Part shown: piece after piece, positions 5,028 to 27,673 of the stretch
Position numbering within the stretch: position 1 is the stretch's first letter
How the letters are laid out: each line of letters opens with the position of its first letter
Source: a virus
Virus record (IMG/VR): IMGVR_UViG_3300037882_001386
Span: 1 to 38,510 of that record
Strand: one strand, 5' to 3'
Length of the DNA stretch: 38,510 nt
Program-made: the position numbers and the translations under genes
The notes under the pieces: model-generated
Told to the model about the DNA's origin: nothing
Seen by the model: the letters and a program-made list of their open reading frames with translations, nothing else
Databases searched by the model: none

Positions 5028-6008
5028 TCACCAGCCCATTGCCTTGATGCTCGGAGCCATATGCTCCACGTTCACATGGGCGTAGCGCATGACCATTTCT
5101 ATGCTCGCCCAGCCGCCCAACCCTTGGAGCCCAGGTACGTCTCTATTGGCCGCGTAATGCCATGTAGCCCATGTATGGCGGCAATCGTGCGGGGTGAAAT
5201 TTTTGATCTTTGCACGGCGGCAAGCTCCATTGAATCCGGTCTTGATTTGCCCGCCGCAATCCTCAACATACTTGTACGGCTTGCCGCGATTGGTAAGAAA
5301 CACGGGGCCAACCCGATGCTTGATACCCGAAAGCGCGTCATAGGTTCTTTCGCTCAACGAAACGCCACGGCTTTTGTAGTTTTTTGTTTCCTCAAAATTG
5401 ACCTGTTTCAGTTTGTGGTCAATCTGTGACCACTGAAGGTAAAGCGCCTCTGAAACCCTTGCCCCGGTTCCAAACATGAAAATCAGCAATGGCCTCAGAT
5501 GCGGAGCCGCTTCGCTCACAAGCGCTTCTGCTTCTGACACCGTAAGATAGCGCACCCGATTGTTATTGTAACGCGGGCGCTCAAGCACAATGAAATTGCA
5601 CCAGTCGCGCTTGGCCCCATGGCGCAGCACGGCGCTCACGGGGGAATATACTTGCCGATCACGGGTTGATGGTTTGGCTGTTGGATAGATCGCCTTTGCG
5701 GCGGCGTCTATATCGGCCTGTCCGATAGAATTGACAGTGCGCCTTTTCCCGAAGTGCTTAATGATGGGAGCAAGGAATCTCGCTTCGCCGCCATTTTCCA
5801 TGAATGAAACAGCAGCTTCCACAAATGTCACCGTTGCCCGTTCGCCAAATATACTACGGTTGAGGAGCCGCTGTTCTTCCTTGATGCGGAGCGCTTCTGC
5901 CGCTTCCCGGTTGTCAGTTTTTGTGCTCTTGTCCACAGCGATTCCTCGGACAGACCCCCGGAGATACCAGGCTCTTGAACCTTTGCGCTTGACAACTTGG
6001 AGGGGCAT
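5028..6008 (-). CDS. int: Tyrosine-family site-specific integrase
   Basis: The product is 326 aa, full length for the family. The catalytic domain shows Arg184 in FGTGARVSEAL, a candidate lysine at 209-212 (TKNYKSR), His274-x-x-Arg277 in PHDCRHTW, Trp300 in GGW and Tyr309 in MRYAHV. The N-terminal third is a DNA-binding SAM-like region. It would recombine attP with a host tRNA-Thr gene and, with excisionase, reverse this. Its start lies inside the excisionase-like gene (181-bp overlap) and has a weak ribosome site, so translation may depend on coupling. Confidence 0.95.
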   Translation of the reverse strand: MPLQVVKRKGSRAWYLRGSVRGIAVDKSTKTDNREAAEALRIKEEQRLLNRSIFGERATVTFVEAAVSFMENGGEARFLAPIIKHFGKRRTVNSIGQADIDAAAKAIYPTAKPSTRDRQVYSPVSAVLRHGAKRDWCNFIVLERPRYNNNRVRYLTVSEAEALVSEAAPHLRPLLIFMFGTGARVSEALYLQWSQIDHKLKQVNFEETKNYKSRGVSLSERTYDALSGIKHRVGPVFLTNRGKPYKYVEDCGGQIKTGFNGACRRAKIKNFTPHDCRHTWATWHYAANRDVPGLQGLGGWASIEMVMRYAHVNVEHMAPSIKAMGW

Positions 6009-11362: not shown

Positions 11363-11514
11363 TTCTTCACCTCTAGAGCAAGGTAGTCTGGATAATCCGA
11401 GCGTCTGCTATCCCAGCGAATTGGTTTGCCCGATGGCACCAGCCCAAGCTTCTGAATTTCAGAAAGCTGATATGAAAGCGTGTTGGCTTTGCCGATGAGG
11501 AGAAGGCGGGTCAC
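11359..11514 (-). CDS. GTG-started small basic protein (51 aa)
   Basis: GTG at 11514 overlaps the previous stop (GTGA), and TGA at 11359-11361 overlaps the next ATG. The product begins VTRLLLIGKANTLSYQLSEI and ends SDYPDYLALEVKK, with a central GLVPSGKPIRWDSRR. The double stop/start overlap and protein-like composition support coding. Fold and function are unknown; a winged-helix fragment is possible. Confidence 0.6.
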   Translation of the reverse strand: MTRLLLIGKANTLSYQLSEIQKLGLVPSGKPIRWDSRRSDYPDYLALEVKK

Positions 11515-12149
11515 GCTGACACCGCCGCCGCTTCTTCCTCGGCAAGGCGTTTCATATCCGCCAGCGCATCTTCGTTGCTGTCATAAAACCGTGCCGGATT
11601 GATTGGCGAACCGCTCTCGCGGTAAATCAGCATTGCCGCCAGTTCCCAATTGAAACGGGCTTCAAGCGCCTTCCCTGCTTCGCCAGCAAGTGTCACGGCC
11701 CAGCCCGCGCGGCAATGCGTTGTTTCGCAAGTGTGCGGGGCGTTCATTTCAAGGGCGTTTGGCTGCGAAACAGCTTCAAAAATCCGCGAATGTATGCTAT
11801 CAATCTTCGGGATAGAAAATTCAAAGACCTTGCCGGGGGCGACGTTGTTTTCGCCCGAGCAGTCCGAGCAGCGCGAGCAGTACGAGCAGTCCGAGCAGTC
11901 CGAGCAGTCCGAGCAGCGCGAGCAGCGCGAGCAGCGCGAGCAGTCCGAGCAGTCCGAGCAGCGCGAGCAGCGCGAGCAGTACGAGCAGTCCGAGCAGTCC
12001 GAGCAGTCCGAGCAGTACGAGCAGCGCGAGCAGTCCGAGCAGTCCGAGCAGTCCTTTAGAGTTTTGAGTGACTCCCGTGCGGCTTCTTCACTGCCCCACT
12101 TCTCAACCGAAGCGCGGTTTCCGTTTTCGCCCGTGATCCAAGTTTTCAT
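11511..12149 (-). CDS. Protein with 22 tandem Cys-Ser-X tripeptides
   Basis: Started at 12149 (MKTWITGENGNRASVEKWGS), the product is 212 aa. Residues 34-99 are 22 perfect CSX units, where X is Asp (11), Arg (7), Tyr (3) and finally Gly. A normal C-terminal domain follows with MNAPHTCETTHCRAGWAVTL (CxxxxC) and LAAMLIYRESGSP. Cys at every third residue could make a metal-binding or disulfide-stacked solenoid. I believe relatives with variable numbers of such repeats exist in other phages; none has a known role. An ATG four codons upstream (12161) lacks a spaced ribosome site. Confidence 0.8.
   Translation of the reverse strand: MKTWITGENGNRASVEKWGSEEAARESLKTLKDCSDCSDCSRCSYCSDCSDCSDCSYCSRCSRCSDCSDCSRCSRCSRCSDCSDCSDCSYCSRCSDCSGENNVAPGKVFEFSIPKIDSIHSRIFEAVSQPNALEMNAPHTCETTHCRAGWAVTLAGEAGKALEARFNWELAAMLIYRESGSPINPARFYDSNEDALADMKRLAEEEAAAVSA
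11853..12050. repeat. 9-bp tandem repeat encoding (Cys-Ser-X)22
   Basis: On the plus strand the units are GAGCAGTCC, GAGCAGCGC and GAGCAGTAC (with shifted phase), repeated without interruption for 198 bp. Only the two or three bases of the X codon vary. Near-identical DNA units imply recent expansion by slippage or recombination, so copy number should vary between isolates and may be miscounted by short-read assembly. Confidence 0.95.
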
Positions 12150-12184
12150 CTTCAGTCCCATCCTTTGGTTATGGTCTAGAAACT

Positions 12185-12231: not shown

Positions 12232-12414
12232 TTACGAACGCTTGGTTTCGCATTCCTTCTCGGCTTTGACTTTGATGCTGGTGCCGCCAGATGTCTGGCA
12301 GGACTTGGTTGCGGCATTCACCCAGTTTCCTGAGCTGGGCCAGCACGGCAAATCCTTTGCAGAAGCCATCGAGGCTGTCGCAAACAGGGCGGCGATGATA
12401 ATTAGGGTTTTCAT
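12232..12414 (-). CDS. Small secreted Cys protein, first gene of the PL operon
   Basis: ATG at 12414, after a GGAGAGAAA ribosome site, gives 60 aa. It has a clear signal peptide (MKTLIIIAALFATASMASA, cut before Lys20). The mature part is about 41 aa with three Cys (LPCWPSSGNW, KSCQTSGG, KECETKRS). It is the first product made from PL under repressor control. A superinfection or envelope effect is possible but not supported by any motif. Confidence 0.65.
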   Translation of the reverse strand: MKTLIIIAALFATASMASAKDLPCWPSSGNWVNAATKSCQTSGGTSIKVKAEKECETKRS

Positions 12415-12460
12415 TTTCTCTCCGTTTCGGGCCGCACCGTGATTGGTGGGCATGGAGAGT

Positions 12461-12533: not shown

Positions 12534-12866
12534 TTAAAGGTCTTTCAGCCGCGCCGCTCGGCGACTCGCCACGTCGATATAGTCCTGAAGGTTCCGCAGG
12601 ATGGTGCGCTGCGTTTCGTCATCCAGTTCCCTGGCGTTGTAAACCGCTTCTTCCCAAGCATCCAATGGGGCGGGTATTTCCGGGTCCAATTCATAAGCCT
12701 TAACATCTAGGGCCTTTGCTATCCTGTAAATGGCCTTTGTGGACCGTGTAGCACCCCGCTCGATCTCGCCAATAAGCTGCTGGCTGACCCCGGCCCGCTT
12801 CCCGACTTCGCCCTGCGACATATCTGCCGCAGCCCTCGCAGCCTTGAATTTCTTTATGTCGATCAT
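12534..12866 (-). CDS. CI-like XRE repressor
   Basis: The product is 110 aa. Residues 8-60 are a Cro/CI helix-turn-helix (KAARAAADMSQGEVGKRAGV then SQQLIGEIERGATRSTKAIY). The C-terminal region is a short helical part (WEEAVYNARELDDETQRTIL), probably for dimerisation. There is no LexA-type peptidase domain, so it is not expected to self-cleave after DNA damage. It lies between two operator pairs and opposite a Cro-like gene, which identifies it as the immunity repressor. The ribosome site is weak. Confidence 0.88.
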   Translation of the reverse strand: MIDIKKFKAARAAADMSQGEVGKRAGVSQQLIGEIERGATRSTKAIYRIAKALDVKAYELDPEIPAPLDAWEEAVYNARELDDETQRTILRNLQDYIDVASRRAARLKDL

Positions 12867-26422: not shown

Positions 26423-27673
26423 ATGGCTAATACAACCCTGACCGCAGATATTGTTGCGAAGGCATCTCTTGCCGTTCTTGACAATAACCTCGGCTTCCTC
26501 GACACCTTCCACCGTGAGTTGGAAAGTGAATTCACACAATCGGTAAACGGCTACAAGCCGGGTGCCACGATCCGTATGCGCCGTCCGGCTGACTTCACCG
26601 TCCGTTCCGGTGCCGTCATGTCGGTGCAGGACGTTATCGAAGGCCGTTTGGCCTTCACCGTAGACAAGCAGAAGGGCATTGATTTCAACTTCACCAGCAC
26701 TGACTTGACCCTCTCGGTTGAGGCTTTGCAGGAGAAGGTGATCGAGCCTGCAATTATCCGCCTTGTCAACGAAATCGGCAAGGACTGCCTTGATGCGTTC
26801 TATAAAGGAACCTATCATTGGGCAGGCACCCCCGGCCAGACCATCAACAGTTTTGCGGACTTTTCCAAAGGCCCGGAACGCCTTGATGAGATGGCAGTTC
26901 CGCAGGACGGGCGCACCGCCATCCTGTCACCTACGGATCATTGGGCGATGCTCGGTTCGCAGACCGCGCTTTATATCAATGATGCGGCGAAGTCGGCCTA
27001 TCGCAATGGTGAGCTTGGCCAGATTGCAGGCGTGAAAATGTTCTCGTCCGCAGTCGTGCCGACCCACACCACGGGTTCGCGCGATGACACCACGCCTATC
27101 ACGGCGGCGGCATCGGGCGATCAGTCAGTGACCTATGACTCGGTAAAAAACACCTGGGCAATGGACTTGGTGACAACCGGCTTCGACAACGCCACCACGC
27201 TTGTTGCAGGCGACGTGTTCACCATCGCTGATCTCTACGCAGTAAATCCGGTGACGAAACAGGCGACTAACTTCTTGCAGCCGTTTGTGGTCAATACGGC
27301 CATCACACTGGACAGCACTGACACGATCAACATCTCGCCCCCGATCATTACTTCGGGGCCGCACCAGACCGTGGCACTCTCAACCGGAACATTCGCCTCT
27401 AACGCCCTGGTCAACTTTGGCGCGGCGTCAACTGGCTATAAGCAGAACCTTATCTATCACAAGAATGCTTACGGCTTGGCCTTCGTGCCGATGGAACTGC
27501 CCAGCGGCGCTGTCAATCCGTCCCGTGTAACGTCAAAGAAAACCGGGATCAGCATTCGCGTGATCCCGGCCTATGACGCCACGAACGATGTGAGCGCATG
27601 GCGTCTTGACGTGCTTTACGGGCGTCAGGCTATTGACCCTCGTATTGCCTCGCGTCTCAGCGGCACCGCTTAA
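26423..27673 (+). CDS. Major capsid protein, P22 coat-like
   Basis: The product is 416 aa, close to P22 gp5 (430). The start (VLDNNLGFLDTFHRELESEF; GATIRMRRPADFTVRSGAVM) and VEALQEKVIEPAIIRLVNEI match the P22 coat family with its HK97 fold. The end, WRLDVLYGRQAIDPRIASRL, is also characteristic. It should be the most abundant virion protein. Confidence 0.94.
   Translation: MANTTLTADIVAKASLAVLDNNLGFLDTFHRELESEFTQSVNGYKPGATIRMRRPADFTVRSGAVMSVQDVIEGRLAFTVDKQKGIDFNFTSTDLTLSVEALQEKVIEPAIIRLVNEIGKDCLDAFYKGTYHWAGTPGQTINSFADFSKGPERLDEMAVPQDGRTAILSPTDHWAMLGSQTALYINDAAKSAYRNGELGQIAGVKMFSSAVVPTHTTGSRDDTTPITAAASGDQSVTYDSVKNTWAMDLVTTGFDNATTLVAGDVFTIADLYAVNPVTKQATNFLQPFVVNTAITLDSTDTINISPPIITSGPHQTVALSTGTFASNALVNFGAASTGYKQNLIYHKNAYGLAFVPMELPSGAVNPSRVTSKKTGISIRVIPAYDATNDVSAWRLDVLYGRQAIDPRIASRLSGTA

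Follow-up and report, generated by a model that had tools for sequence, protein, structure and literature searches.

Pentapeptide repeat proteins such as MfpA and Qnr (PF00805) are expansions of a short five-residue unit, A-(D/N)-L-x-x, that coils into a right-handed, square beta-solenoid with Ala and Leu inside, and MfpA is known to mimic DNA (PMC10886550). In the left-handed beta-helix (PF00132), as found in LpxD and GlmU, units of the type [LIV]-G-x4 place six residues on each face around a core of Ile, Leu and Val. The insect antifreeze protein TmAFP is a short, Cys-rich beta-solenoid with a 12-residue repeat, and it is secreted and disulfide-bonded. Tandem Cys-Xaa-Xaa repeats are known from bacteriocin precursors of the heterocycloanthracin type, small proteins with a leader peptide and associated TOMM enzymes, in which copy number varies between strains (Haft 2009, PMC2674419). 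This was the only relevant study retrieved in our literature search on Cys-Ser-X or triplet solenoids.

The gene considered here lies in the window, a viral stretch of 38,510 nucleotides (IMG/VR record IMGVR_UViG_3300037882_001386), and its product contains 22 Cys-Ser-X triplets, again a short unit in many copies, but of three residues where the pentapeptide unit has five. The protein matches neither PF00805 nor the Hexapep family. Its top sequence match in the PDB is TmAFP (1ezg), with an E-value of 0.035 that is compositional in nature, and it differs from the antifreeze protein in its triplet repeat and its cytoplasmic-looking character. With the heterocycloanthracin precursors, the phage arrays share tandem Cys-x-x units in variable copy number. 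We consider it reasonably probable that we are dealing with an early two-part phage protein, in which a variable solenoid would serve as a binding rod on a constant docking or effector domain.

The array gene and its reading frame

The open reading frame occupies positions 11511-12149 on the minus strand and encodes 212 amino acids. A further in-frame ATG upstream, at 12161, gives rise to a long form of 216 amino acids, but the second Met is the better start because relatives begin there with MTTWI or MKTWI. A conserved N-terminal cap (12051-12149, minus strand; W-I-T-x-E-N-G-N-R...G-S-E-E-A-A..L-K), predicted to form a strand pair and a helix, runs directly into the first Cys of the array. 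The latter (11853-12050, minus strand) comprises residues 34-99, or 38-103 of the long form, and its triplets follow each other uninterrupted. In the window DNA, TRF identified a 9-bp unit in 22.2 copies, of the form TGC-TCG-NNC, and all 22 units read TGC-TCG followed by GAC (11), CGC (7), TAC (3) or GGC (1), without a single silent change, so that X is Asp in 11 triplets, Arg in 7, Tyr in 3 and Gly in 1. Note that relatives keep the C-S-X frame in spite of different Ser codons that would scramble the other frames, which identifies C-S-X as the coding frame.

A variable linker (11814-11852, minus strand; alignment A1), modelled by AF2 with low confidence, connects the array to an all-alpha C-terminal domain (11514-11813, minus strand). 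The core motif of this domain, H-x-C-x-x-T-H-C-R-x-G-W (11700-11735, minus strand), consists of invariant columns of alignment A2, which includes proteins of the Cys-X-X (CXX) and the pentapeptide (PPR) type, and may be a metal site. The preliminary description of this locus had reported 22 perfect Cys-Ser-X triplets at residues 34-99 of a product encoded at 11511-12149, with X restricted to Asp, Arg, Tyr and Gly, a near-identical 9-bp DNA repeat and a subsequent domain containing CETTHC. The translation, the codon count and the TRF analysis bear this out, and CETTHC lies C-terminal to the array (long-form residues 145-150).

Conservation of the Cys-X-X arrays

When viral contigs were scanned with the window protein, 143 relatives emerged, the best 80 of which were fetched. 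According to the preliminary description, a neutral microsatellite was to be recognized by the absence of the repeat from relatives or by arbitrary residues in its place, and the comparison with relatives did not bear this out. In the 81 arrays formed by these best 80 of 143 relatives and the window, Cys is found at 2,392 of 2,402 triplet starts. The second position of the triplet is mostly Ser, with F, Y, W, L, I, R and T also present, and the third is D, G, R, Y, N or one of a few others. The comparison of repeat counts that had likewise been suggested gave 13 to 59 triplets in uncut copies, the maximum being reached in L015. Ser codons vary between arrays (TCG, TCC, AGC, TCA, TCT and AGT). 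The Cys-X-X repeat also occurs in bacterial isolates of Rhizorhapis, Phyllobacterium, Kaistia, Dyadobacter and Bosea and in the cultured Flavobacterium phage FL-1, which excludes a microsatellite private to the window. Well over 100 phages thus retain the Cys-Ser-X stretch. A pattern scan for triplet arrays also picked up short CSG or CCS runs, located in short ORFs and with an X that does not vary, and these were set aside as microsatellites of other frames.

In the FL-1 record (L187, KY421186.2, approximately 26,460-27,271) the long Cys-X-X array has no annotation; a short hypothetical ORF is all that covers the array end, and the C-terminal motif is divided over two frames. In L069 the array continues in a shifted frame (GLLGLLALL), so that either the copy is frameshifted or the sequence is in error. 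L016 holds tandem paralogues of the gene at 5119 and 6001, with 97.9% identity in the C-terminal DNA and arrays of 45 and 52 triplets that are arranged differently.

Several Cys-X-X arrays are joined to other C-termini, related to phrog_20532/7964 in L372 (2643-2858) and L377 (5393-5626, minus strand) and containing a GCR..T..EA-like motif in L396 (5502-5711, minus strand) and L419 (13541-13738, minus strand). The array therefore is a mobile module in its own right.

A C-terminal domain with exchangeable repeat partners

In the PHROGs database, the C-terminal domain matches phrog_31265 (E 7e-27), whose profile in turn matches all 30 members of alignment A2, while phrog_15341 corresponds to the repeat and phrog_889 to the core motif. 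All three are unnamed phage families without an assigned function. AF2 predicts the domain as all-alpha with high confidence (pLDDT approximately 81-98 by block). It did not match any Pfam family, nor did the protein as a whole, and Foldseek searches with the domain against the PDB and BFVD were empty. A search for phrog_889 in host genomes gave no signal and was uninformative.

Bacterial genome contigs and two further viral scans were combined into a census of 298 distinct ORFs bearing the domain, with 140 of the pentapeptide type, 131 of the Cys-X-X type, 20 others and 7 truncated, a ratio shaped by the choice of queries that does not represent natural frequencies. As evidenced by Pfam, the partners of the domain include pentapeptide repeats (PF00805, E 6e-41 and 5e-57 in two examples), the hexapeptide left-handed beta-helix (PF00132, E 5e-18 and 4e-11 in L197 and L218) and, in L227, HEAT repeats (PF02985, E 3e-10). 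A tree of the domain, midpoint-rooted and poorly resolved, requires at least two switches between the CXX and PPR types, and its basal branches are PPR. From these sequence comparisons, the position preceding the C-terminal domain is a solenoid slot that is exchangeable among repeat types, and nothing speaks more strongly for Cys-Ser-X being a solenoid as well than the presence of known solenoids in this slot before the same domain. An unnamed phage domain thus accepts at least four unrelated solenoid kinds, so that the purpose of the rod can be tested by swapping. The same domain also follows apparent further short repeats in L105 and L244 and an Ala/Trp-rich repeat in L118, all without a Pfam match.

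Predicted fold of the triplet repeat

With a gappy alignment of 22 rows, a first AF2 run left the repeat unresolved (pLDDT approximately 33). A second run on the cap and the 22 triplets, with 45 nearly gapless rows, gave the cap a pLDDT of 93-96 and, between residues 31 and 58, put a one-residue beta-bridge on each Ser, once every three residues. The regular part of this model is confined to the first eight or nine triplets, with pLDDT values of 90, 82 and 60 for consecutive ten-residue blocks and below 50 thereafter. Foldseek returned zero significant matches for the second model; the weak ones were mostly to left-handed beta-helices (LpxD, GlmU, YdcK, eIF2B, a dynactin subunit and perosamine N-acetyltransferase).

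The number of triplets is not quantised by two or three (p ~0.3) and shows no bias modulo 2-6. In an autocorrelation analysis the largest value was that of lag 3 at the Ser position, a weak peak that is confounded by duplication. The residue spectrum of X (D, G, R, Y, N) is common to the outward i+2 position of pentapeptides (G, D, Y, S, R, N), and in comparisons with the family's own pentapeptide arrays the cosine is 0.71 for triplet position 2 against i+1 (S/R) and 0.77 for triplet position 3 against i+2, although pentapeptide position i-1 (D/N) likewise resembles X (cosine 0.73).

We consider it likely that the Cys-Ser-X repeat is a solenoid. It is most likely a triplet beta-solenoid, with which the second model agrees over its first eight or nine triplets, and probably an unusually small one of a new kind; three triplets, or nine residues, may make up each coil. 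A three-residue solenoid repeat was absent from Pfam, the PDB and BFVD as searched, and such a minimal structure could serve as a design scaffold.

Homogenised scaffold and variable X

In 113 arrays, those from short-read metagenomes being possibly misassembled in part, the mean pairwise difference within arrays is 0-0.029 at scaffold positions including silent sites, and 0.013-0.029 at the silent sites themselves, as opposed to 0.433 at X1 and 0.466 at X2, the first and second base of the X codon. The pentapeptide arrays of the family show the same contrast in a milder form. Under neutral drift of an old array the silent sites would vary too, while homogenisation alone would flatten X; the observation fits with selection on X, or with copying between units whose X residues form a selected set.

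Near-identical phages, all of them metagenome assemblies in which repeat collapse or chimerism is possible, differ by X changes and by the loss or gain of whole triplets: L133 and L142 share approximately 2.8 kb of identical sequence with L145, save for three base differences that all fall on X1 or X2 of two units; L072 and L077 are identical over 3 kb apart from a 27-bp deletion and a single change at X2; and L467 and L468/L469, identical over 1 kb on each side, differ by 16 triplets (34 versus 18). Frozen silent sites next to an X that changes between phages with identical flanks make this an unusually clear example of how a homogenised array can diversify internally. The preliminary description had inferred a recent expansion, and this is half correct, as the DNA is homogeneous, but many phages have kept the repeat, and homogeneity is maintained in every array while X varies. 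Its suggestion of a stacked solenoid that changes length by slippage gains support from the exchange of repeat types, the solenoid start in the AF2 model and the whole-triplet indels between identical flanks.

Gene neighbourhood

In the window, the array gene is located downstream of a cI-like HTH repressor gene (12534-12866, minus strand; PF01381, E 3e-10) on the same strand, an early-region context. YqaJ is found near 18 CXX and 20 PPR loci and ERF near 13 and 12, respectively, and DUF3799, RecT and SSB are further neighbours of both versions. In most loci these recombination genes are situated downstream on the same strand. The gene thus sits in an early recombination region (YqaJ, ERF, RecT), and the shared neighbours of the CXX and PPR versions argue for equal roles of both solenoids. 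A Bordetella record has the pentapeptide version approximately 2 kb from YqaJ.

The latter version, in L188 (Bordetella bronchiseptica plasmid pA, NZ_CP132331.1), is carried on a 39-kb element that also encodes an integrase, a lysozyme and YqaJ; typed as a plasmid, it is probably a phage-like replicon. Between repressor and array gene, the window further encodes a 73-residue ORF (12232-12453, minus strand) with a signal-peptide-like start and no match in Pfam or PHROGs.

Possible function and alternative explanations

In the proposed protein, the N-terminal half would be a narrow, rod-like beta-solenoid of C-S-X triplets, with Cys pointing inward as a ladder, Ser forming the bridge between coils and X at an outward corner, while the C-terminal half would be a constant, small helical docking or effector module. 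Slippage or unequal recombination would add or remove entire 9-bp units and thereby homogenise the scaffold codons, with X kept diverse by selection or by the copying of units inside the array. We infer that the solenoid is a binding surface; that it forms a rod with a diversified face is plausible but tentative. The most far-reaching version is doubtful; here a new, three-residue-face, Cys-ladder class of solenoid would act as an interchangeable phage rod with a fixed scaffold and one variable residue per unit, as in TALE repeats, and its hypervariable, recombining X array would recognise a linear or repetitive target by reading or matching it. The partner probably would be a factor of the host or the phage that takes part in DNA metabolism or in defence, and any specific target named at this stage is unlikely to be the correct one.

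The preliminary description had raised metal binding by the cysteine ladder; in such a metal or redox protein, the thiols would coordinate Zn, Cu(I) or Fe-S or serve as a redox sink. Cys is the sole near-invariant residue, the C-x-x-C spacing suits metal sites and there are weak compositional matches to zinc-finger chains. However, pentapeptide, hexapeptide and HEAT repeats without such cysteines fill the slot, with the same C-terminal domain and neighbours, the Ser position accepts F, Y, W, L, I and R, and the number of triplets is unrestricted. Since Cys-free solenoids can take the place of the repeat, metal binding by the ladder becomes less likely, and we regard this function as unlikely. 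Nor do we expect a DNA mimic like MfpA or Qnr that would, for example, protect phage DNA from a host nuclease or a gyrase-linked process, an idea that draws on the pentapeptide solenoids in the same slot, the adjoining recombination genes and the acidic average of the arrays. Their net charge has a median of -4, but while it is negative in 84 of 115 CXX arrays it is positive in 25, and the HEAT and hexapeptide versions fit a mimic poorly. That the repeat is a disordered or disulfide-linked Cys-rich spacer joining two small folded ends would agree with the disorder in the first AF2 run; given the beta-bridges of the second run and the exchange with folded solenoids, it seems improbable.

The bacteriocin precedent raises the question of a modified-peptide precursor, be it a heterocycloanthracin- or TOMM-like Cys-Xaa-Xaa substrate or one of the His-Xaa-Ser type. 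The corresponding HxsA4 match (NCBIfam) reaches 16.6 bits against a cut-off of 55, YcaO is present in none of 50 CXX phage records, and a conserved domain of 100 amino acids follows C-terminal to the repeat, all of which renders such a precursor very improbable. Equally remote is a neutral microsatellite or assembly artefact, in spite of the near-identical 9-bp DNA, the many loci from short-read metagenomes and the frameshifted copies in L069 and FL-1. The repeat is kept in isolates and many phages in a single frame, with scaffold codons that differ between arrays, and X varies while silent sites stay invariant; at the level of the family, this explanation is refuted. We thus retain the two-part protein with a solenoid rod as the preferred reading.

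DUF5131 was considered as a modification partner and rejected, as it is found in 6 of 50 CXX and 4 of 50 PPR records and thus shows no association. In the window, a DUF5131 protein with three Cys (PF07505, E 1.4e-77) is encoded at 1411-2067 on the minus strand.
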